Positions 1-11,290 of a DNA stretch of 37,677 bases are shown here, piece after piece. Below the pieces are notes generated by a model, which was not told the origin of the DNA, did not search any database, and worked only from the letters and a program-made list of their open reading frames with translations. Source of the DNA: Opitutales bacterium. GTDB lineage: Bacteria; Verrucomicrobiota; Verrucomicrobiia; Opitutales; Oceanipulchritudinaceae. Positions within the stretch are counted from its first letter, which is position 1. Each line of letters opens with the position of its first letter. The DNA lies in contig JAFIGG010000034.1 in NCBI GenBank assembly GCA_020831485.1, positions 1 to 37,677 on the forward strand, read 5' to 3'. The position numbers and the translations under genes are program-made.

Positions 1-1172
1 CTCGTGAGCGATTTGCTGAATTGATGGCGGATCGACCAATGATTCATCTCAAGTCGCAAATGCGTGTGAAAGCTGGAGAGGGGTATATTGACTTCGTAAA
101 CGATCTCCTGGAGGGGAGCAACGTAAGATCTTTTCAAGGCTTGAGCGATTACGAATTGGTTTTCTTCGACACCCTTGATGACCTGTATGACCGATTGAAA
201 GCGCGTGAGAGAAAATTCCAGCTCTGCCGTCTCGTTGCGGGTTATGCCTGGAAATGGACATCCAAAAATGATCCGAACCAATTCGACATAGAAATCGACG
301 GTTTACAGCTAAAGTGGAACAAGGAGCATATCGGCTGGATCAACTCAGGAACTGCCGCTGAAGAAGTGGGCTGTATCCATACGGTTCAGGGATACGATCT
401 GAATTATGTGGGCGTGATCTTTGGTCCGGAAATCGTTTTCAATCGCGAAAGTAGTACGATTGAGATTCTGAGACACAGATACGAAGACCGGAACGGAAAG
501 GCTGGAGTCGAAAACGATCATGATCTAAAACGGTATGTGCTTAATATCTATCAAACACTCATGTGCCGGGGTATTCACGGGACCTTTGTTTATGCCTGTG
601 ATCCCGGTTTGAGGGAATATCTAAAGCGTAGCTTCCAAAGCATCGGAGCGGAATGCGTTGGCGCTGGAGATCCCGAAATAGCGGAGCCATTTAAGATCCT
701 GGATCCAGAGGAATTGCGGTTTTCTCAGGGTGCGGTTCCTAAATTGGATATTCAGGCGGCTGCCGGGGGATTCAGTGCCGATCAGTGGGTCGAAGATTGT
801 GAATGGGTCGAAGTGATTGATGAGATTCGGACGGGCCCTGATCACTTTATCGTTCAAGTGTACGGGGAATCAATGAACAGAATTATTCCGAATGGGGCTT
901 GGTGTTTATTCCGAAAGAATCAGGGCGGGAGCCGGAACGGCAAAGTGGTCCTGGTCCAGCACCGGAATATTCAGGACCCGGACAATGGAGGCAACTTCAC
1001 GGTCAAATATTATAATAGTGAAAAGGTCGTAGACCAAGACTCCTACCAGCACGTAAGTATTGTGCTCAGCCCTTATTCAACTGATTCCGCCTATTCCGAA
1101 ATCCAATTGAAGGACGATCAGCTCCATGAGCTGAAAGTGATTGGGGGATTTGTGCAAGTATTGGGCAGGTAG
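1..1172 (+). CDS. DUF2075/Schlafen-like helicase C-terminal part fused to S24 (LexA-like) domain, 5' truncated
   Basis: The frame is open to the left edge; the first in-window start-like codon is TTG at 21, but residues before it (RERFAEL) read on smoothly, so the gene starts outside the window. Numbering from the TTG, residues about 1-225 match the C-terminal half of the DUF2075 helicase family: R-x-AGYAWKW (70-79), KWN (98-100), the conserved HTVQGYDLNYVGVI block (120-133) and MCRGIHGTFVYACD (181-194). The ATP-binding half would lie upstream. Residues about 240-383 look like an S24 peptidase/LexA C-terminal domain: an Ala248-Gly249 bond, Ser284 in YGESM and Lys329 in FTVKYY. Spacings of about 36 and 45 residues resemble LexA's scissile bond, Ser and Lys. 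Family knowledge: DUF2075 proteins are often found near defence genes, and S24 domains self-cleave after DNA damage. That this protein self-cleaves is inference. Confidence 0.85.
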   Translation, partial: RERFAELMADRPMIHLKSQMRVKAGEGYIDFVNDLLEGSNVRSFQGLSDYELVFFDTLDDLYDRLKARERKFQLCRLVAGYAWKWTSKNDPNQFDIEIDGLQLKWNKEHIGWINSGTAAEEVGCIHTVQGYDLNYVGVIFGPEIVFNRESSTIEILRHRYEDRNGKAGVENDHDLKRYVLNIYQTLMCRGIHGTFVYACDPGLREYLKRSFQSIGAECVGAGDPEIAEPFKILDPEELRFSQGAVPKLDIQAAAGGFSADQWVEDCEWVEVIDEIRTGPDHFIVQVYGESMNRIIPNGAWCLFRKNQGGSRNGKVVLVQHRNIQDPDNGGNFTVKYYNSEKVVDQDSYQHVSIVLSPYSTDSAYSEIQLKDDQLHELKVIGGFVQVLGR

Positions 1173-1474
1173 GGGCTGGCTGGAATTTGTGTGTGGAGGG
1201 GGCGCCACACTATGTCGGATCTGGTTGGTGAGGTCGCACGCAGGGGGACCGCCACGCCTACGGAATCTTCCCATCCCGGCCACCAAATGTACAAAAATAG
1301 ACAGCGCACACGATTCTCGAAAACATGCATGCGCTTCATTCTTGGGTGTGGTTTGAAATAACTGCGCTTTGGTTTGGGGATGAATTGAATTCATGGATAA
1401 CCCGAAAAACATGAAGTGGGCTAATTTGCGCAGTTGGGGTAACTGGCATGGGGGGTGCAAGTGGAGGGGGCGTG
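1173..1474. promoter_or_regulatory. Non-coding region before nrtA with palindromes
   Basis: This 302-bp gap holds no convincing gene. It contains a hairpin GTGTGG (1191-1196)/CCACAC (1205-1210) just after the helicase gene, too weak and without a T run to be called a terminator. At 1242-1259 there is a degenerate relative of the GC-rich repeat seen near 13.1 kb. A perfect 15-bp palindrome ATGAATTGAATTCAT lies at 1380-1394. It sits between the arms of a wider inverted repeat, AACTGCGC (1360-1367) and GCGCAGTT (1428-1435). A sigma-54-like sequence lies at 1443-1460. The region must hold the promoter and control sites of the nitrate locus, but I cannot name the regulator. Confidence 0.5.
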
Positions 1475-2833
1475 ATGAGATGCTTGACACAATTTATTCA
1501 ATCAACCCGGAAACTGGCAGGGCTTCTGGGGGTAATTTCACTGGCTGGCCTCACGGTGCAGCCGATTCATGGGGATGATTTCCCGGAAAAACTGGAGCTG
1601 ACTTTTGGCTTTATTCGCCTAACGGACTGCGCGCCGTTGATCATTGCCAAGGAGATGGGGTTCTTTGAGGACGAGTTTCTTTCGGTCAATCTGGAGTCGC
1701 AGGCAAATTGGCGGGTGCTGCTGGATCGGGTGGTAACGGGCGAGCTGGATGGCGCACACATGCTGGCGGGGCAACCGATTGCTGCGAGTGTGGGGGTTGG
1801 CCACGATGCGCATGTGGTGACGGCCTTCAGTATGGATCTGAATGGCAACGCGATCACGGTGTCCAACGATGTCTGGGCACAAATGAAGGAGCACAACCCG
1901 GAGCTTCAGGCGGAGAAGCCGGAGCGTCCGATCGGTGCCGAAATGCTGCGTCCGGTGGTGGATTCTTTCAACAGCCGGGGGCGGGACTTCCGCATGGGGG
2001 TTGTGTTCCCAGTGTCGACGCACAATTACGAACTGCGCTACTGGCTGGCCGCCGGCGGGATTCATCCTGGATTGTACCGCGGACCCAATGATACGGGTAC
2101 CCGGGATGGGGATGTCACGTTGACGGTGACGCCGCCGCCGCAAATGCCTTCGACAATGGCCCAGGGCACGATTCACGGCTACTGCGTGGGTGAACCCTGG
2201 AACCAGGCGGCTGTGGCTCAGCGGATCGGGGTTCCGGTTACAACCAACTATGACATCTGGAAAAACAATCCGGAAAAGGTTTTTGGTGTGACGGCCGAAT
2301 GGGCCGAGCGCTACCCGAATACCCACGTCGCGGTCGTGAAAGCGCTGATTCGCGCAGGGCAATGGCTGGACGAAAGCATTGAGAACCGTCAGGAGGCCGC
2401 ACGCATCCTTTCCCGTCCGGAATACATCGGCGCTGATTACGAAGTGATTGCAGCCAGTATGACAGGGACCTTTGAGTTCGAACCGGGCGATGTGCGCGAC
2501 ATGCCGGACTTCAATGTGTTCTTCCGCTACCATGCAACGTACCCATTCTACAGTGATGCAGTCTGGTTTCTGACTCAGATGCGCCGCTGGGGTCAGCTGA
2601 CCGAAGGCCGCGAGGACGACTGGTACCATGACCAGGCGAAGCGTATCTATATGCCGGAAGTCTGGCAGGAAGCAGCCCGCCGCCTGGTGGCCGAAGGACA
2701 CCTTTCCGCAGACGATGTGCCGGACACCGATGGCTTCAAGGACCCGGACGACGGTTTTATTGATGGTGTGATTTACGACGGGCGCGAACCGAATGCCTAC
2801 CTGCGCCAGTTCTCCATCGGTTACAGCGACTGA
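1475..2833 (+). CDS. nrtA: Nitrate ABC transporter substrate-binding protein (NrtA/CmpA family)
   Basis: The product is the extracytoplasmic nitrate (possibly nitrite) binding protein of the ABC uptake system encoded by the next three genes. The 452-residue product begins with a signal peptide (basic start, then hydrophobic [15 protein letters not shown]) with likely cleavage near residue 33, after HG. The mature part opens with [20 protein letters not shown], the typical NrtA/CmpA start. It also has the family features [21 protein letters not shown] and [15 protein letters not shown] chose ATG 1475 rather than the in-frame ATG at 1448 because GGAGGGGG (1463-1470) is well placed and the signal peptide then has a normal length. 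I see no lipobox cysteine next to the cleavage site, so it is probably soluble in the periplasm. It is followed 19 bp later by the permease gene. Confidence 0.93.
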
Positions 2834-2852
2834 ATTTCAACCCAATCCAACT

Positions 2853-3869
2853 ATGCTCAATCGTATCATTCATACTCTGGAAAAGATCGGCTTCGGCTGG
2901 TTGACGCCGGTCATCCGCCTCTGCGCAGGGCAGGCTCCGAAGGAGCAATTGCCGCTTATTGCCAAAGGCATTCTGGTGCCAATCCTGTCCGTGGTCCTGT
3001 TCTGCCTGGTATGGGCGGCCGCAGCGCCGAAGGTGCAGACCAATATCGGCACCGTCCCCGGCCCGGGTGAAGTGTTTTCCCAGGCGGGTCAGCTGTGGGA
3101 AGACCACAAGGAACACCGCGAACGCCGCGCCCAGCACGCCGAGCGCCAGGCCGAGTTGCAGGTTCGGTTTGAGGAGCGCTTCCCCGACCGCGAATGGACT
3201 CCGCGTCCGTTCACCGGGAGCCCGAGCTATATGGACCAGATTGTGGTTTCGCTGAAGACGGTGTTCGCCGGCTTCCTGATCGCCTCGTTCGTAGCCATTC
3301 CCATCGGAATTCTCTGTGGCATGAGTTCGACGGTGTATGCGGGGCTGAATCCGATCATTCAGATTCTAAAACCGGTGTCGCCGCTGGCCTGGCTGCCGAT
3401 CGTCATGATCCTGGTGGCCGCCCTCTACAATCCAGCCAATCCGATGTTTGAGCGGGCTTTTCTGAGCTCAGCGATTGTGGTCGCCCTGTGCTCGCTGTGG
3501 CCAACCCTGATCAATACCGCGATCGGGGTCAGCTCGGTGGACAAGGATCACCTCAATGTTGCGAAGGTGCTGAAGCTTGGCCCAGCCACACGTATCTGGA
3601 AAATCATTCTGCCTTCCTCGCTGCCTTATATCTTCACCGGCCTGCGCCTGTCTCTGGGGGTTGGCTGGATGGTGCTGATCGCTGCGGAAATGCTGGCACA
3701 GAACCCTGGCCTCGGAAAGTTCATCTGGGACATGTATCAGAGCAGTAGCAGCAGCACGCTGGCCTACATCATGGTGGCGGTGATCACCATCGGGATCATC
3801 GGCTTTGCCTTGGATCGCCTGATGCTGACCCTGCAGAACCTCGTGAGCTTCGAAGAAAAGCCCGGTTGA
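2853..3869 (+). CDS. nrtB: Nitrate ABC transporter permease (NrtB family)
   Basis: Inner-membrane permease of the nitrate importer, 338 residues from ATG 2853. One hydrophobic helix near residues 38-55 (ILVPILSVVLFCLVWAAAA) is followed by a long charged, helix-prone segment rich in Glu, Arg and Gln (about 80-115). Then come five or more membrane segments of the BPD_transp_1 fold. The EAA-like coupling loop is visible around VAKVLKLGPATRIWKIILPSS, and GLRLSLGVGWMVLIAAEML is strongly typical of NrtB/SsuC/TauC permeases. The frame stays open up to 2793, which would overlap nrtA. I prefer 2853 because the extra residues do not look conserved. No good ribosome-binding site precedes either start, so coupling to nrtA translation is likely. 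Confidence 0.92.
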   Translation: MLNRIIHTLEKIGFGWLTPVIRLCAGQAPKEQLPLIAKGILVPILSVVLFCLVWAAAAPKVQTNIGTVPGPGEVFSQAGQLWEDHKEHRERRAQHAERQAELQVRFEERFPDREWTPRPFTGSPSYMDQIVVSLKTVFAGFLIASFVAIPIGILCGMSSTVYAGLNPIIQILKPVSPLAWLPIVMILVAALYNPANPMFERAFLSSAIVVALCSLWPTLINTAIGVSSVDKDHLNVAKVLKLGPATRIWKIILPSSLPYIFTGLRLSLGVGWMVLIAAEMLAQNPGLGKFIWDMYQSSSSSTLAYIMVAVITIGIIGFALDRLMLTLQNLVSFEEKPG

Positions 3870-3889
3870 TCCCAAAGGAGAGCGCTATC

Positions 3890-4765
3890 ATGAAAGCCAT
3901 TGAATTCCAGAATGTCAGCAAGGGATTTGGTCCCGAAGGTCCGAACCGCGAGGAAGTCTTGAAAGACATCAACCTGAGCGTCGAAGAGGGCGAGTTTGTC
4001 GCCATCATCGGCTACTCGGGAAGCGGCAAGAGCACCTTGATCAACCTAATAGCCGGACTGCAAAAGCCGGATGTCGGCTCAGTCCTGTTTAGGGGCCAGC
4101 CAGTGCGCGACTGTGATCCTGAGCGCGGTCTGGTGTTCCAGAACTATTCCCTGCTGCCCTGGCTCACTGTCTACGGCAATGTTGCCCTGGCGGTGAACAG
4201 TGTGTGCAAGGAACTTTCGCCCAAGGAACGCGATGAGCGAATTCGTCATTACATCGAGATGGTCAACCTCAGCCCGGCGATCGACAAGCGCCCGGCGGAG
4301 TTATCGGGCGGCATGCGCCAGCGCGTTTCGGTGGCCCGTGCCCTGGCAACGGATCCAAAGATCCTCTTGCTGGACGAACCGCTGAGTGCGCTCGACGCCT
4401 TGACTCGGGGAGTTCTGCAAAATGAGATTGCGCAGATCTGGGAACGTGAGCGCAAGACCGTGTTGCTGATCACTAACAGTGTCGACGAAGGCTTGCTGCT
4501 GGCCGACCGCGTCATCCCGCTCACCCTTGGCCCCGGGGCGACACTTGGTCCTGAGTTTGTCGTCGATCTGCCACGGCCACGCCGGCGTGCGGATATGAAT
4601 CACAACCCTGAATACATCCGCATGCGCACGGAAATCACCGCTTACCTGAGTGATCTTCGTGGGGATGCCGGGGCACAGGATGACGACAAGCTGATTCCCT
4701 TTCCGAACCTTCAACCTTTGGACCCCAGCGAGCGCAGCGCGCACGTTTTCTCCTGGGTCCGCTGA
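3890..4765 (+). CDS. nrtC: Nitrate ABC transporter ATPase, NrtC-like
   Basis: One of two ATP-binding subunits of the nitrate importer, 291 residues. Seen: Walker A GYSGSGKST (41-49), Q-loop Gln84, signature LSGGMRQRV (138-146), Walker B ILLLDEP (158-164) and D-loop SALD. The usual H-loop histidine is replaced by Asn196 (ITNSVDEG). I believe this is normal for NrtC/CmpC proteins rather than a lesion. The C-terminal stretch LTLGPGATLGPEFVVDLPRP is also NrtC-like. Cyanobacterial NrtC carries an additional NrtA-like domain of several hundred residues; it is absent here. The start at 3890 has an AAAGGAG box (3874-3880). An upstream in-frame TTG at 3866 overlaps nrtB and is less likely. Confidence 0.9.
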   Translation: MKAIEFQNVSKGFGPEGPNREEVLKDINLSVEEGEFVAIIGYSGSGKSTLINLIAGLQKPDVGSVLFRGQPVRDCDPERGLVFQNYSLLPWLTVYGNVALAVNSVCKELSPKERDERIRHYIEMVNLSPAIDKRPAELSGGMRQRVSVARALATDPKILLLDEPLSALDALTRGVLQNEIAQIWERERKTVLLITNSVDEGLLLADRVIPLTLGPGATLGPEFVVDLPRPRRRADMNHNPEYIRMRTEITAYLSDLRGDAGAQDDDKLIPFPNLQPLDPSERSAHVFSWVR

Positions 4766-4777
4766 GTGGAACCGATC

Positions 4778-5683
4778 ATGACCGAATATAAAAAACCATT
4801 TTTGGAGCTTTCGCAGATGCGGAAGGTGTATGAAACGCCGAAGGGCCCGGCAGTCATCCTGGATGACTTCAATCTCAAGGTCTACAAGGGCGAGTTCATA
4901 ACCTTCATTGGCCACAGTGGCTGTGGTAAGTCCACGGCGCTGACGATGATTGCCGGCTTGAACAGTATCAGTGGTGGGGTCGCAATTCTCGACGGCAAGG
5001 AGATCACCGGCCCGGCACCTGATCGCGGTGTGGTGTTTCAGTCGCCCTGCCTGCTGCCCTGGATGACCGCCTATGACAATGTCATGCTCGGCGCCAAGCA
5101 GGTCTATTTCCACGGCACTCGCCAGCAACGGCGGGAGATTGTGGAGTATTTCCTGACCCAGGTGGGACTCAAGGACGCCATGCACAAGCGCGCCGCCGAC
5201 CTTTCCCAGGGCATGCGTCAGCGCTGCGGCATTGCCCGGGCCTTTGCTCTGAATCCGAAGATGCTTCTGCTGGATGAACCCTTTGGTATGCTTGACCAGT
5301 TGACCAAATACGAACTGCAGGAAGTTTTGATCGATCTCTGGTCCCGCGACCAGAAGACCGCTGTCATGGTGACTCACGACGTGGACGAGGCCATCTACCT
5401 TTCGGATCGGGTGGTCATGTTGACCAATGGCCCTGCGGCCAAAGTTGGCGACGTTCTGGAAATTGATTTTGAGCGCCCGCGCAGTCGCCTCTCCATCATG
5501 AAGGAGAAGCGTTACTACGAATACCGCGAGCACCTGATCTCCTTCCTTGAAAACTGTGAATCGGAGAAGGCCAATATCGCCCGCAAGAGCAATTCCGAAC
5601 CTTCCAGTCCCAGGCAGGGCGGATCCTTCTTTAACCGAATTACCCGTCGTAACCGCGAGAAGCCGGTTGCCGTGAATGCCTGA
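4778..5683 (+). CDS. nrtD: Nitrate ABC transporter ATPase, NrtD-like
   Basis: Second ATP-binding subunit of the nitrate importer, 301 residues from ATG 4778. Seen: Walker A GHSGCGKST, Q-loop VFQSPCLLPWM, signature LSQGMRQRC, Walker B MLLLDEPFGMLD and a canonical H-loop VTHDVDEAIYLSDRV. Unlike its NrtC partner it therefore has all catalytic motifs. The tail of about 35 residues is rich in Ser, Asn, Arg and Lys and lies beyond the usual ATPase end. A GTG at 4766 directly after the nrtC stop is in frame and would add four residues; ATG 4778 is the more usual choice. The next gene starts two bases after the stop, so the transporter and the reductase genes are almost certainly one operon. Confidence 0.9.
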   Translation: MTEYKKPFLELSQMRKVYETPKGPAVILDDFNLKVYKGEFITFIGHSGCGKSTALTMIAGLNSISGGVAILDGKEITGPAPDRGVVFQSPCLLPWMTAYDNVMLGAKQVYFHGTRQQRREIVEYFLTQVGLKDAMHKRAADLSQGMRQRCGIARAFALNPKMLLLDEPFGMLDQLTKYELQEVLIDLWSRDQKTAVMVTHDVDEAIYLSDRVVMLTNGPAAKVGDVLEIDFERPRSRLSIMKEKRYYEYREHLISFLENCESEKANIARKSNSEPSSPRQGGSFFNRITRRNREKPVAVNA

Positions 5684-5685
5684 AA

Positions 5686-7272
5686 ATGCGCAAGGAATCG
5701 TCAGTGGATTGGGATGCGGCCGAGGCCGTTGACCCGGTGACGCGCTACCTGCAGAAGGAGCAGCGCCTGGAAACACCGGTGGCCCGCTTTGCCGAGGCGC
5801 ATGCGACTGAGTCGCTGCGGACCGAGGCGTATCGGAGTCTCATTCCACTAACCGCTCCGCAGAAGGGCGAACAGTATGCTTTTGAGGTCAACCTGGATCA
5901 GTGCACAGGGTGCAAGGCTTGCGTGACGGCTTGCCATAGCCTGAACGGATTGGATGAACACGAAGCCTGGCGTGACGTGGGGTTGATGCAGGCTGATGCA
6001 CCGGCTGCCTATCAGCAAACGGTTACCAGCGCCTGTCACCACTGTGCCGATCCGGGTTGTCTCAACGGCTGTCCGGTGGATGCCTACGACAAGGATCCCG
6101 AAACCGGCATCGTTCACCACCTGGACGATCAGTGCATCGGCTGCCAATACTGCATTCTTAAGTGTCCCTACGACGTGCCGAAGTACAACAAGCGGCTGGG
6201 CATTGTGCGCAAATGCGACATGTGTCACAGCCGTTTGGCCGAAGGCGAGGCACCGGCCTGTGTGCAGGCTTGTCCAAATGAGGCGATCCGCATTGTGAAG
6301 GTGCCAACCGAGTCCACAGGCAGTGAAGAGCCGGACCCGGTTTTTAAAGGTTTTCCTCAAGGCGCCACCGAGCATGGCTATACCCAGCCAACGACGCGCT
6401 ACCTGAGCAAGCGGGGTGTTCCTGAAGCGGCGCAGGCTGCCGATGCCCGCGCGCTGCGCCCGCAGCATTTGCATGGACCTCTGGTGATAATGTTGTTGCT
6501 GACCCAATTTTCGGTTGGCCTGCTGAGCGCAGGCTACCTGCTCGGAAGTCGCGAGCTCCTTTTTGCCGCCGCAGCCAGCTGTCTGGCCGGGTTGATGGCC
6601 AGTGGCGCCCACCTCGGGCGACCCTTGAAGGGCTGGCGCGCATTCGTGGGCTGGCGGCATTCCTGGTTGAGCCGGGAAGTCATCGCCTTGGGTGCTTACA
6701 TGCCCTTGCTGGCCGCAACGCTGCTTCCTGCTCTGAATTTCATCGCACCGCTGGCCATTGGAGTCGGCCTGGTCGGAGTCTTTACTTCAGTAATGGTCTA
6801 TCACGACACGCATCGGCGCCTGTGGCAATTTTCCTGGACGGCAATGCGTTTCTACGGCAGCAGCCTGCTGGCGATGGCCTGTGGTGGGCTTGCCTTGGGT
6901 GCCTGGGTGGGCGATGGTCGTTTGCTGTCCCTTGCCTTGTTCGGAGTAGTGGCTGCCAGTCTGTTCAAAGGCGCTGGGGAGCTCAGCTTTGCAAAGCGTG
7001 CCTTGAGTAATCCGGAGCCCAGTGCGGAACGGCAAAGTTTGCGCCTGCAATGGGGCCCGCTGCGTTCCTTGAGCCTGCTTCGCTGGACCGGTCTGGTTGG
7101 CGGCGGATTGTTGCTGCCGTTGTTTTTACTGATCGGAAACTGGGGGAGTGTGCTGCAACTGACGCTCAGCCTGGCTTTAATTATCACCTGCCTGACCGCA
7201 GAAATCGCTGAGCGCATGCTGTTTTTCCGCGGCGTCGATGCACCTAAAATGCCTGGAGGAGTTTACTCATGA
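5686..7272 (+). CDS. Fused DmsB-type four-cluster ferredoxin and DmsC-type membrane anchor
   Basis: A 528-residue electron-transfer protein with two parts. Residues about 60-205 hold sixteen cysteines in four ferredoxin-like groups ([39 protein letters not shown]...CVQAC), the pattern of DmsB/NrfC subunits that bind four [4Fe-4S] clusters. Residues about 262-520 contain about eight hydrophobic segments with [26 protein letters not shown], typical of the DmsC/YnfH quinol-oxidising anchor. There is no twin-arginine signal, so the clusters should face the cytoplasm. Its gene ends inside the nasA start (ATGA overlap), so I infer that it feeds quinol electrons to the nitrate reductase. It is normally two proteins in dimethylsulfoxide reductase operons; here they are fused. 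No heme ligands can be assigned with certainty. Confidence 0.9.
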
Positions 7273-9512
7273 GCACACTTTTAAAAGCACGTCCGCAACA
7301 GAATTCATTGTTTCGCAGCTGGCAGGGTCCTTTGACCCGGGAGCTTGTGCAGGCACCCTCGGCGCATGGCCTGGGGCGGCTGCCGGAGCGTCTGCAGCCT
7401 ACTGCGACCACGGAGTCTGTCTGTGGATTCTGTTCCACCGGGTGTTCCCTTAAAGTCCACCTGCGCGACGGCGAGGCCATCAACCTCAGTGCCGATCCGC
7501 AGTATCCGGTCAACCGCGGCATGGCATGTCCCAAAGGTTGGGAAGCCCTGGCTCCCTTGTCCGCAGGTGACCGCGCCACCGAGCCCTTGCTACGTGGTGA
7601 CGACGGCCGCATGCGCAGCGTCAAGTGGAACGGCGCCTTGAGCGTCATGGTCGACCGCTTTCGTCGCATTCAGGAACGCCACGGTCCCGATTCTCTGGCC
7701 TGGCTTGGCACCGGGCAGATTCCCACAGAGGAGCTGGCGCTTCTGGGATCGGTGGCCAAATTCGTATTGGGGATTCGTCATGGCGACGGCAATACACGGC
7801 AGTGCATGGCCACTGCGGTGACCGCCTACAAGGAGTCCTTCGGTTTTGATGCCCCTCCTTATACCTATGAGGACTTCGAGGAATCCGATGTGCTGGTGTT
7901 TTTTGGATCCAACCTGTGCATTGCCCACCCGATTCTCTGGCAGCGCGTGTTGCGCAATCGGCGCAATCCGGACATCCTCGTGGTGGATCCTCGGGCGACG
8001 GAAACCGCACAGGCGGCGACCCGGCATTACGGCCTGCAACCGAAGTCCGACCTCAGCCTGGTCTACGGGCTCGCCCATCTGTTGTTGAAAAAAGACTGGG
8101 TGGACCACTCCTTTATCCGCAAACACACCAATGGATTCGATGCCTTTGCTGAGTTTGTGCAGGCCTTCCACCCGCAACGGGTTTCCGCCGAAACCGGATT
8201 GAGTGTGGAGCAGCTGGAACAGTTCGCCGAGCGCATCGGCTGCGGTGGACGGGTTTCCTTCTGGTGGACCATGGGCGTCAATCAAAGCCACGAAGGCGTG
8301 CGGGTTGCCCAGGGTATTATTAATCTTGCCCTGATGACAGGCAACATCGGCAAGCCCGGCACCGGCGCAAATTCGATCACCGGCCAGTGCAATGCCATGG
8401 GGTCGCGTCTGTTCAGCAACACCACCGGACTACTGGGTGGCCGCGATTTCGAAAACCCGCAGCACCGCAACGAAGTGGCCAGTATTCTGAACATTCCCGA
8501 GGAGCGCATTCCCGATCAGAAGAGCCTCGCCTACGACCAGATCATTGAGGGCATTCAGGAAGGCCGGATCAAGGGCCTTTGGATAGTGGCGACCAACAGT
8601 GCCCATTCCTGGATGCACCAGAACGGCTTGATGGACGCATTGCGGCAGTTGGAATTTCTGGTGGTTCAGGATATGTATGCGAGCACCGAGACCGCTCAGT
8701 TGGCCGACCTGATACTGCCCGCCGCGGGCTGGGGAGAAAAGGAAGGTACGTTTATCAACAGCGAGCGCCGGATCGGGCGGGTGCGCAAGGTGCGTCGGGC
8801 ACCGGGAGAGGCCCTGAGTGATTTTTCAATTTTTCAACTGATCGCTCATTACGCCGGTTGTGCCGACATGTTTCGCGACTGGGACAGCCCGGAGTCTGTA
8901 TTTGAAATTCTCAAAAAGTTGAGCCGAGGGCAACCCTGCGACATCAGCGGCATCGAAGGATACAGTGCCCTCGAAAACCAGGGAGGCATTCAGTGGCCCT
9001 GCAGCGAGCAGATGCTGTCCGATGCTGGTGGTAAAGTCGCTGCCCAGCGACGCCTGTTCGAGGACGGCCGTTTTCACCATGAGGATGGGCGGGCACGGTT
9101 TATTTTCGAGCAGCCCCGAGCATTGCCGGAAGCCTGCAATGTGGATTATCCTTTCACCCTCCTGACCGGCCGTGGCACCTCCGCGCAGTGGCATACCCAG
9201 ACCCGGACGGCCAAGTCCGATGTGCTGCGCAAACTGTATCCGCAGAACACCTACGTGGAACTGCACCCGGAGGACGCCCGTGCGTTGGAACTGGATCCCG
9301 GGGAAGCGGTACAGGTTCGCTCCCGTCGGGGAAGCGTTCGCGCGGTGGTCCACGTTACACCCATTGTGCAGCCCGGGCAGGTTTTCATACCAATGCATTA
9401 TCCGGAGGTCAATCGCCTGACCTTTCCTGTGGTCGATCCCTATTCCCGGCAACCCGGATACAAAGCCTGCGCGGTCTGCATTGAAAAAACCTCCAGCAAG
9501 GATTTATCATGA
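7269..9512 (+). CDS. nasA: Assimilatory nitrate reductase catalytic subunit
   Basis: Molybdenum bis-MGD enzyme that reduces nitrate to nitrite in the cytoplasm; 747 residues. After about 48 variable residues comes the [4Fe-4S] motif with Cys52, Cys55, Cys59 and Cys87 (VCGFCSTGC ... GMACPKG). Cys179 in [10 protein letters not shown] is the probable Mo ligand. [17 protein letters not shown] and the C-terminal molybdopterin-binding domain ([17 protein letters not shown]) fit the NasA/NarB family. There is no twin-arginine signal. A GGAGG box lies about 10 bases before ATG 7269, and the start overlaps the previous stop by 4 bp. The 3' end also overlaps nirA by 4 bp. I do not see the extra C-terminal [2Fe-2S] domain found in Klebsiella-type NasA, nor an adjacent NasC-type NADH flavoprotein. 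Confidence 0.95.
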
Positions 9513-11290
9513 GCACGCAAGCAATCGATTCAAAGAGTTTCAGTCCGGAGCAGCAGGAGTACCTTAAAGGCTTCTTTACCGGGATTCAGCAGCGGCCCGG
9601 GCCCAATCCCTTTGTCGGCCAAACCGCGAGTGGTCAGTTGACCGCGGATCCCTCTCAGGCCGGTGCGAACATGGCGGAGCCCAGCGTGCACGGTGTGCCG
9701 ATCGAAGACCTGTGCAAAGAGGAGCGGGTCAAACACGAGCAGCACGGCCTTGATATCTGGGATACTCTGCTCGACAACGCGGCCCGCAATAAGTTTCCCG
9801 AAGGCGGGGATGTCTTTCGCTACAAGTTCCACGGCCTCTTTTATGTCTCGCCCGCGCAGGAATCTCTGATGCTCCGTTGTCGGATTCCCGGCTGCGTGTT
9901 GCGGGCGGATCAACTGACCGGCATTGCTGAGATCGCCGAGGACTGGGGTGGCAACTATACCCACGTGACGACGCGCGGCAACCTGCAGGTGAGGGAGATT
10001 CAGCCCAAGGACTCCGTGGATGTGCTGCTCAAGCTGCGTGAACTCGGCCTGACCTCACAAGGGTCCGGTGCCGACAACGTGCGCAATGTGACCGCTTCGC
10101 CCACCAGTGGCTTTGATCCCGATGAAGTTTACGATGTGCTGCCCTTGGCAAAAGCCATGCACCACTACATTCTGAACAATCGCGAGATGTATGACCTGCC
10201 GCGCAAGTTCAACATCGCCTTTGACAACGGCGGCGCGGTCAGTGTCTGCGCGGATACCAACGATATAGGATTCTATGCCACCCGGGTGCCCGCAGGGAAG
10301 GCGGAGGACGAAGGCGTCTATTTTAGAGTTCAGCTCTGTGGCATCAGCGGACACAAACAGCTCGCCAGCGACTGTGGCCTGTTGTTGAAACCCGAAGAGT
10401 GTGTGGCCGTCGCGGCAGCCATGTTGCGGGTGTTCATTGCTCATGGCGACCGGACCAACCGAAAGAAGGCCCGCCTGAAATACCTGGTCGACGACTGGGG
10501 CGTGGAAAAGTTTCTCGAAGAGACCGAAAAGTGCCTCGCGTTTCCCCTTCGTCGTTTGCCTCTGGAGGACTGCGAACCTCGGCGCGCGGTGACCCCGCAT
10601 GGCTACATTGGCGTGCACCCGCAGAAGGATCCTGATTTTGGCTACCTCGGTGCAGTGGTGCCCGTCGGCTACCTCGAGCCCCGGCAGATGAAAGGGCTGG
10701 CGGATATTGCCCGCGAATTTGGCCGGGGCGAAGTCAGGCTGACTGTCTGGCAGAACGTGATCCTTCCCTACATTCCCATGGAGGCCATGGATACGGTGAA
10801 GGAACGGGTGCATGCCCTCGGCCTGCAGACCCGTCATCATCCCATTCAGAACGGCCTCGTCGCCTGCACCGGCAACCGCGGCTGCAAGTATGCGGCGACC
10901 GATACCAAGGGCCAGGCCATCGAGCTCGGCGATTACCTCAGCGAACGCGTTGAGCTGGACCAGCCCCTGAATATTCACCTGACCGGTTGTCCGCATTCCT
11001 GCGCCCAGCATTACATCGGCGACATCGGCCTGCAGGGCGTGAAAGTCAAGCGCGACGAAGAGTCGGTCGAGGGCTATCACGTGGTGCTCGGGGGCGGTGT
11101 CGATGACCGTCGCGGCATTGGCCGTGAGATTTGGCAGAGTGTTGCTTTTGACGAGCTGCCGCAGCGCCTGGAGGCGCTGTTGCTGGCTTACCTTGAGAAT
11201 CGGCAGGAGAGTGAATGCTTTACGGATTTCACCCGCCGACATGAAATCGATGAACTTAAAAACATGATTGAGAGCCATGCCCTCTGTTGA
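9509..11290 (+). CDS. nirA: NirA-type siroheme nitrite reductase
   Basis: Six-electron reduction of nitrite to ammonium in the cytoplasm, 593 residues. The siroheme/[4Fe-4S] ligands are Cys453 and Cys459 (CTGNRGC) and Cys494 and Cys498 (CPHSC), the C-x5-C...C-x3-C pattern of the nitrite/sulfite reductase family. [29 protein letters not shown] and [14 protein letters not shown] favour NirA-type nitrite reductase over sulfite reductase, as does the location right after nasA. The first 26 residues contain [16 protein letters not shown], which resembles the N terminus of the following CysJ-like protein. Start ATG 9509 overlaps the nasA stop by 4 bp. Sulfite reductase activity cannot be excluded from sequence alone, given the CysJ-like neighbour. 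Confidence 0.9.

Follow-up and report, generated by a model that had tools for sequence, protein, structure and literature searches.

LexA-type S24 domains on restriction-type enzymes: a GIY-YIG/Schlafen helicase fusion of an Opitutales bacterium and a possible self-cleavage switch

The window analyzed in this study, a stretch of 37,677 nucleotides from an Opitutales bacterium (GCA_020831485.1, contig JAFIGG010000034.1), begins inside a gene whose product joins a helicase to a LexA-type domain. What a self-cleaving domain might do at the end of a helicase is the question raised by this locus. The open reading frame at positions 3–1172 of the plus strand has no internal stop codon, and it runs off the contig edge with no stop codon at its left end. 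Positions 1–55 of the window (plus strand) overlap exactly with the end of contig C40, which was the sole other assembly match of positions 1–1300 at an E value threshold of 0.001, and the reading frame is continuous across this 55-base overlap, which gives a full protein of 736 amino acid residues. The N-terminal 347 codons are on the minus strand of C40 (locus L003, from position 1094) and the C-terminal 389 codons, including the stop codon, are those at positions 3–1172 of the window. An earlier note on this DNA had numbered the residues from the TTG at position 21, which is not the gene start; the start codon is an ATG on C40. This ATG overlaps by four bases the stop codon of the upstream gene (L003, 1091–1420, minus strand), which encodes a MazG-like nucleotide pyrophosphohydrolase (PF12643, E = 4.7e-21).

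Besides the opening section of the SLFN-g3_helicase domain (PF09848, formerly DUF2075), the upstream sequence thus recovered contributed a GIY-YIG domain (PF01541, 28.8 bits with a cut-off of 22.6), so that the protein is a nuclease-helicase-S24 fusion. The GIY-YIG match covers only profile positions 3–41 of 78, and the corresponding part of the model of a relative, L089, mostly has a pLDDT below 50. The C-terminal part of the helicase domain (profile positions 149–354 of 354) is at positions 30–602 of the plus strand; its match in the window half had an E value of 1.2e-45, and the two halves of the gene scored 45.5 and 156.7 bits, both above the gathering score of 24 bits. It is followed by a Peptidase_S24 domain at positions 753–1145 of the plus strand (PF00717, E = 1.8e-6, 28.1 bits with a cut-off of 23.3). 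An assembly chimera as the source of this architecture was rejected because the same order of GIY-YIG, helicase and S24 was found in one frame in other genomes (L089, L093, L175, L176, L178, L179, L182, L183, L185, L187, and L194, all assigned by BLAST, and L089 and L182 also by Pfam). Downstream of the fusion, the genes at positions 1448–9512 resemble, by eye, those for an ABC transporter of the nitrate type (with binding protein, permease, and two ATPases), for an iron-sulfur/membrane protein and for a molybdopterin oxidoreductase.

The predicted scissile bond of the S24 domain is Ala601-Gly602 (positions 762–767), the predicted nucleophile is Ser637 (870–872) and the predicted general base is Lys682 (1005–1007), all on the plus strand. 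These are the residues that had been numbered Ala248-Gly249, Ser284 and Lys329 from the TTG, and each was confirmed at its place. The distances from bond to Ser and from Ser to Lys are 36 and 45 residues, respectively; for A84, S119, and K156 of LexA they are 35 and 37 residues. In the widest S24 profile (A6), AAG aligned with the AAG of LexA and GeSM with its GMSM, and when A6 was compared with PDB sequences, the best E value was 0.00067 and all 11 matches were LexA. The AlphaFold2 model of the S24 domain, built with 42 related domains, had a pLDDT of 85, with values below 50 for residues 25–27 and 29–32, a low-confidence loop at the predicted bond. Structural comparison matched this model to LexA (3k2z) with a Z score of 13.3 and an rmsd of 3.1 over 128 residues, to lambda CI (8gmu, Z = 12.7), LexA (8gms, 12.4) and UmuD (8gmt, 10.3) from complexes with RecA filaments, and to UmuD with a Z score of 10.4 at best. 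The first match outside the LexA/CI/UmuD family was signal peptidase (Z = 6.8). The residues and the modeled fold support the S24 part of the window protein as a LexA-type domain with apparently intact cleavage residues.

Similar to LexA, UmuD and lambda CI, the S24 domain has this fold, a Ser-Lys dyad, and, close to its N-terminus, an Ala-Gly or Cys-Gly bond. Different from them, however, the N-terminal partner of the S24 domain in the window protein is a nuclease-helicase and not a DNA-binding domain. The helix-turn-helix that marks LexA repressors at the N-terminus is replaced by GIY-YIG and helicase, and the NCBIfam lexA equivalog scored 14.6 bits against a threshold of 110.95. The domain also belongs to a subfamily distinct from other S24 domains: in the window's genome the S24 profile (E 1e-10) found the fusion only and not a 221-residue S24 protein on contig C137 that was found by Pfam. 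Given that LexA, UmuD and CI chains on RecA filaments were among the best fold matches, the domain might serve as a dimerization or RecA-filament-binding arm that takes the enzyme to single-stranded DNA or stalled forks, with cleavage being incidental. We regard this as quite unlikely. Such an arm would need neither a nucleophile, a base, nor a scissile bond, yet most members retain all three, and most of the variation at the bond is between two types for which cleavage is known.

The evidence for this conservation came from two kinds of searches. A pattern scan with three S24 domains over the genomes of 84,980 species (one genome each) identified 115 relatives, 80 of which were kept. The majority had an architecture other than that of the window protein, with an N-terminal domain followed by an SLFN-g3 helicase and S24, which was found in Halomonadaceae, Marinobacter, Thermodesulfobacteriota, Myxococcota, and others. 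In L016, the representative of this type, the N-terminal domain had no Pfam or PHROG match and was covered by a match of 67 bits to PDC-S41, a candidate family of PADLOC; a D...ELK motif seen by eye suggests that it may be a PD-(D/E)XK nuclease. The same architecture as that of the window protein was found in L089 and L093 of Flavobacteriaceae, while other S24 partners were found in L072, L073, L082, and L088. Profile searches (E 1e-10 throughout) were then centered on five groups, with the centre genomes, which had been picked for having a match, counted in each. Profile A3 matched 21 of 387 genomes of the window's phylum, 9 of 369 of the class of Halomonas L034 and 18 of 395 of the phylum of Flavobacterium L089, and the broader A6 matched 9 of 345 and 20 of 195 genomes of the phyla of L057 and L073, respectively. 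A total of 71 loci were fetched: 20 of 25 matches from the window's phylum, 8 of 9 from the class of L034, 18 of 18 from the phylum of L089, and 25 of 30 from the phyla of L057 and L073. Among 194 genomes of the window's phylum, 29 had SLFN-g3 (PF09848), and it was fused to S24 in five of the 29 (G000, G123, G166, G176, and G257). The S24 domain is thus an optional addition.

In the 72 distinct domains found by the pattern, Ser and Lys as well as P1 Ala and P1' Gly were each present in 72 of 72; the search pattern could favor the bond, yet 46 of 75 rows matched the IPNGAWC pattern alone. In the 44 domains from the first three profile searches, Ser was present in 43 and Lys in 44. The sole exception for Ser was L198, a fragment with an in-frame stop. 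The bond was covered in 42 of these domains, all with Gly at P1', and P1 was Ala in 37 and Cys in five, namely an HsdR, an AlwI, an HsdS, a type III Res and a ResIII helicase. Cys-Gly is the cleavage bond of UmuD. The 25 domains from the phyla of L057 and L073 had Ser in 24, Lys in 25 and Gly, as aligned, in 21, one of which (L251) rests on a doubtful alignment gap. Those lacking an aligned Gly were L237, whose domain start is outside the frame, L249, L250, and L256. L249 and L250 are near-identical type III Res-S24 proteins with Ala-Thr at the bond and with Ser and Lys kept, which makes them natural candidates, by their sequences, for uncleavable versions; for them, docking with no cleavage may be the proper reading. 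L256, an HTH-S24 regulator, has Ala in place of Ser, and L251 (2963–5554) encodes an 864-residue protein with no Pfam match and with an S24-like domain in its middle that has no adjacent scissile Gly. L139, an ordinary type III-like fusion, has Cys-Gly at the bond. The dN/dS of the S24 domain was 0.044–0.166 in 11 of 14 pairs, in three of which dS exceeded 1.5. Of the other three pairs, L180/L181 had zero non-synonymous changes, L089/L093 was saturated and L253/L259 had a wrong domain border.

The dyad and the bond are thus kept in most members, not all, and the domain is under purifying selection. A chance resemblance to LexA was ruled out by residue conservation, the LexA fold and dN/dS. Selection and conservation also argue against a vestigial S24 domain in most members, with L198, L249, L250, L256, and L251 as the exceptions. 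The view of the earlier note that a helicase carries an apparently intact LexA-type self-cleaving domain was therefore borne out by conservation, fold, and selection. The dyad and the Ala-Gly bond, whose lack in homologs would have spoken against it, were both kept in most distant relatives, the predicted structure of the S24 half matched LexA, and the proposed search for the same fusion and its neighbors found this architecture elsewhere and a general pattern across restriction-type enzymes.

That pattern was evident in the 71 profile-found loci, 56 of which encode restriction- or defense-type enzymes and seven HTH-S24 regulators, with eight unassigned (representatives were classified by Pfam and the remainder by BLAST to the representatives). 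The enzymes were 22 SLFN helicases, 11 HsdR, 10 ResIII helicases that belong to the PLD/DUF3427 type or come close to it (including one fragment 87% identical to another and one with S24 as a separate frame directly behind), three HNH proteins, three type III Res, two DruE, two UvrD-type helicases that are near copies, one AlwI, one HsdS, and one ResIII adjoining a type III methylase. The loci without class were L128, L190, L198, L199, L237, L245, L251, and L252, i.e. contig ends, short frames, and one S24 in the middle of a protein. The names of the partners came from Pfam and PADLOC: SLFN-g3 helicases, whose N-terminus is GIY-YIG or a different domain, HsdR, HsdS (Methylase_S), type III Res, AlwI, HNH proteins, PLDc/ResIII/DUF3427, DruE, and UvrD-type helicases. 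An S24-fused type III Res scored 1153 bits with the PADLOC type III model, and other fusions matched PADLOC models of type I and type III systems and of DruE. Contig C127 of the window's genome carries a further S24 fusion (G000:C127, L014:249-2474), consisting of a methyltransferase domain, an HNH_4 nuclease and S24; its Ser and Lys are present and its Ala-Gly, shifted by one column in the alignment, was seen by eye. By eye, L253 and L259 have a nuclease-like N-terminus before the UvrD-type helicase and S24, and L127 has another S24-tailed frame (8322–10607) near its SLFN-S24 gene. The HTH-S24 regulators of the same subfamily (L246, L247, L248, and L255–L258) may be the source of the S24 subfamily.

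The S24-fused HsdR, HsdS, AlwI, and Res are like standard type I, II, and III restriction-modification enzymes, except that they bear an additional C-terminal S24 domain. Of ten chosen neighboring genes that were scanned, six were methylases, all at restriction-modification-type fusions of the type I, type III and AlwI kinds (L188, L136, L133, L073, L072, and L140), and the remainder were an HsdS and an AAA protein (L188), a NUDIX protein (L184) and a PLD-type helicase (L135). A profile scan of a neighbor of the DruE fusion L130 yielded no match. The MazG-like gene was found in 80 of 95 SLFN-S24 loci and in 4 of 34 other loci (a few duplicates included), and in those four an SLFN helicase was just upstream in a different frame. 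A small gene also precedes the PLD-type ResIII/DUF3427/S24 genes of L180, L184, L189, and L191, which is NUDIX in L184 by Pfam and alike in the others by eye; NUDIX would be another nucleotide hydrolase partner besides MazG. In L012, a phage-labeled fecal contig, a GIY-YIG/helicase gene that has no S24 by eye is preceded by a MazG-like gene. The Halomonas loci varied, each of the seven frames upstream of the L034 gene being found in no more than 2 of 25 loci, and AbiEi was present in 16 and AbiEii in 14 of the 25 loci compared. TIR and ThsB-like genes (Thoeris-like) were near the fusion in L034. In Marinobacter, 5 of 7 loci compared with L021 had a methylase/PLD/ResIII/DUF3427 protein that itself contains an internal S24 and adjoins the SLFN-S24 gene (L021:9555-13427; also in L023, L024, L026, L028, and L052). 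In the internal S24 of L021, Cys-Gly and Ser were seen by eye, with Arg where Lys is expected. The suggestion that the window protein serves defense gained indirect support from the S24 domains on DruE and on restriction-modification enzymes with methylases, and from the loci near AbiE and Thoeris-like genes.

Whether self-cleavage would release or abolish the activity of the enzyme had been left open, and loss is the likelier of the two given how widely the domain is spread over restriction enzymes. Enzymes of types I, II, and III all cut unprotected DNA and endanger the host after damage, which would favor switching off. We consider it about evenly balanced whether S24 is a self-cleavage switch, triggered by RecA and portable among restriction-type enzymes, that most likely turns them off. 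In the reverse case, S24 would hold the enzyme inactive, e.g. as a repressor-like dimer, and RecA filaments arising from phage attack or damage would free an active nuclease-helicase, so that the fusion would be an SOS-activated defense or suicide protein. The conserved self-cleavage machinery speaks for such activation as much as for switch-off. The best PDB match in a Foldseek search with the full-length L089 model was human SLFN11 (E = 1.9e-10), an executor of the damage response, with a TM score of only 0.27 and a model of low confidence (pLDDT 68, pTM 0.46), and the window protein had weak PADLOC matches to candidate defense families, including one of its window half to PDC-S41 (E = 2.5e-7). 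Type I, II, and III enzymes, however, meet the phage first and must act before damage, release upon damage would threaten an incompletely methylated chromosome, and activation fits poorly with the fusion to HsdS, a recognition subunit. We therefore hold switching on to be unlikely.

The partners also bear on how the domain has spread. In a quick tree of 84 S24 domains, 74 labeled rows with 10 partner labels required at least 17 changes of partner (the least possible being 9), a minimum that fell to 15 when the two Schlafen classes were merged and to 13 when the longest rows were left out. The labels were clustered on the tree, as 0 of 200 shuffles gave so low a number. Many partner changes together with clustered labels point to inheritance plus repeated exchange. 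One starred clade (96) united DruE and HsdR with type III Res and a ResIII helicase, and in another (100) one HNH protein stood with GIY-YIG/SLFN and PLD-type proteins. Only 16 of the 81 inner branches were starred, and none of these fixes the place of the window's own domain.

The closest PHROG to the S24 domain was a phage transcriptional repressor family (E = 1.9e-9), and the phylum of L073 has HTH-S24 regulators of the same subfamily. Both observations would suit a domain derived from a CI-like repressor that answers phage signals, such as antirepressors, phage SSB or recombinases, and not RecA. A trigger shared by types I, II, and III would more easily be RecA, however, and the subfamily was nearly absent from the mobile records scanned: no relative was found in viral contigs scanned with the S24 alignment, the S24 domain of L133 had no match in 50,697 phage records, and the domains of two members matched one record each, the same one, among 72,556 plasmids. 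Phage sensing is thus very unlikely in our view. A viral origin of the fusion was likewise rejected, with no relative in the viral contigs and none for the L133 domain among the phages.

Control by SOS promoters gained no clear support either. In 41 gammaproteobacterial operons, a group other than the window's phylum, no exact SOS box was found, and boxes with one mismatch were found in 6, with 3.2 expected from shuffled sequence, which is not a clear enrichment. The "SOS-gated" part of the earlier proposal, in its transcriptional sense, accordingly received no support from these operons. The lack of SOS boxes fits post-translational control, as weak evidence, and recA is present in the window's genome.

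The sequence of events that we propose is as follows. In undamaged cells the fusion protein would be active as a defense nuclease-helicase. After chromosome damage, a RecA-ssDNA filament would dock on S24 in the way known for LexA, UmuD, and lambda CI. The docked domain would then sever the linker of its own chain at the Ala-Gly (or Cys-Gly) bond. The cut would part the enzyme from S24 and leave a new C-terminus that usually reads ...Ala-Ala, an end that we take to be like that of the LexA N-terminal fragment. As the cut LexA N-terminal fragment is a ClpXP substrate, and LexA fragments are said to carry latent ClpX signals, the resemblance suggests that the enzyme could be degraded by ClpXP. 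Its removal during DNA repair and re-methylation would amount to a built-in, post-translational restriction alleviation. In the window's genome, the switched enzyme would be the GIY-YIG/Schlafen-group-3 nuclease-helicase beside the MazG-like nucleotide pyrophosphohydrolase. Several points weigh against switch-off. The final Ala-Ala may be just part of the S24 cleavage motif, the five profile-found members with Cys at P1 would end in ...Cys, a few members have no cleavable bond as judged from their residues, and in HsdS the loss of the enzyme would also halt modification. We know of no cleavage, RecA-binding or defense assay of S24-tailed enzymes, and none was found in the open-access literature.

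Each half of the window protein is of a known kind. Its PF09848 domain is common to Schlafen group 3 helicases, including the helicase domain of human SLFN11, and different from these it adds a GIY-YIG N-terminus, an S24 C-terminus, and a MazG-like partner. The recurring combination of S24 with restriction-type enzymes, however, appears undescribed in the open-access literature that was searched, where no account of S24 domains on restriction enzymes was found. The open-access papers naming DUF2075 were unrelated by their titles, and in the accessible text a paper on YprA helicases did not contain the terms S24, LexA, protease, peptidase, SOS or Schlafen, nor did one on BREX contain S24 or LexA. 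The proposed switch would have the same purpose as the ClpXP-dependent restriction alleviation of EcoKI, i.e. restraining a restriction enzyme upon damage of host DNA (PMC3874165, PMC4231737, in the portions available). According to PMC3874165, exposure to UV, 2-aminopurine or nalidixic acid leads to suppression of type I systems. For EcoKI, ClpXP is a separate protease and the available portion of PMC4231737 describes the HsdR degron as not identified, whereas in the S24 fusions the sensor and the protease would belong to the enzyme itself. The nuclease-protease pairs of antiviral immunity, as far as the accessible part of PMC12799240 describes them, are likewise a case of a protease recurrently joined to unrelated defense systems; there, trypsin-like proteases activate a partner nuclease, whereas in the S24 fusions a LexA-type domain is in the enzyme's own chain.

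Restriction enzymes endanger their owners when the host DNA is damaged and incompletely methylated. We place a little short of an even chance on the whole proposal that a LexA-derived "fuse" has been recruited repeatedly, in several phyla, by type I, II, and III, Druantia, and Schlafen enzymes, and that RecA filaments would lead it to cut itself, with degradation of the enzyme. If true, the link between damage and restriction would be direct and testable with single point mutations, S24 switching would reach beyond transcription and lesion bypass into immunity, and S24 tails of defense proteins could be interpreted by a general rule.
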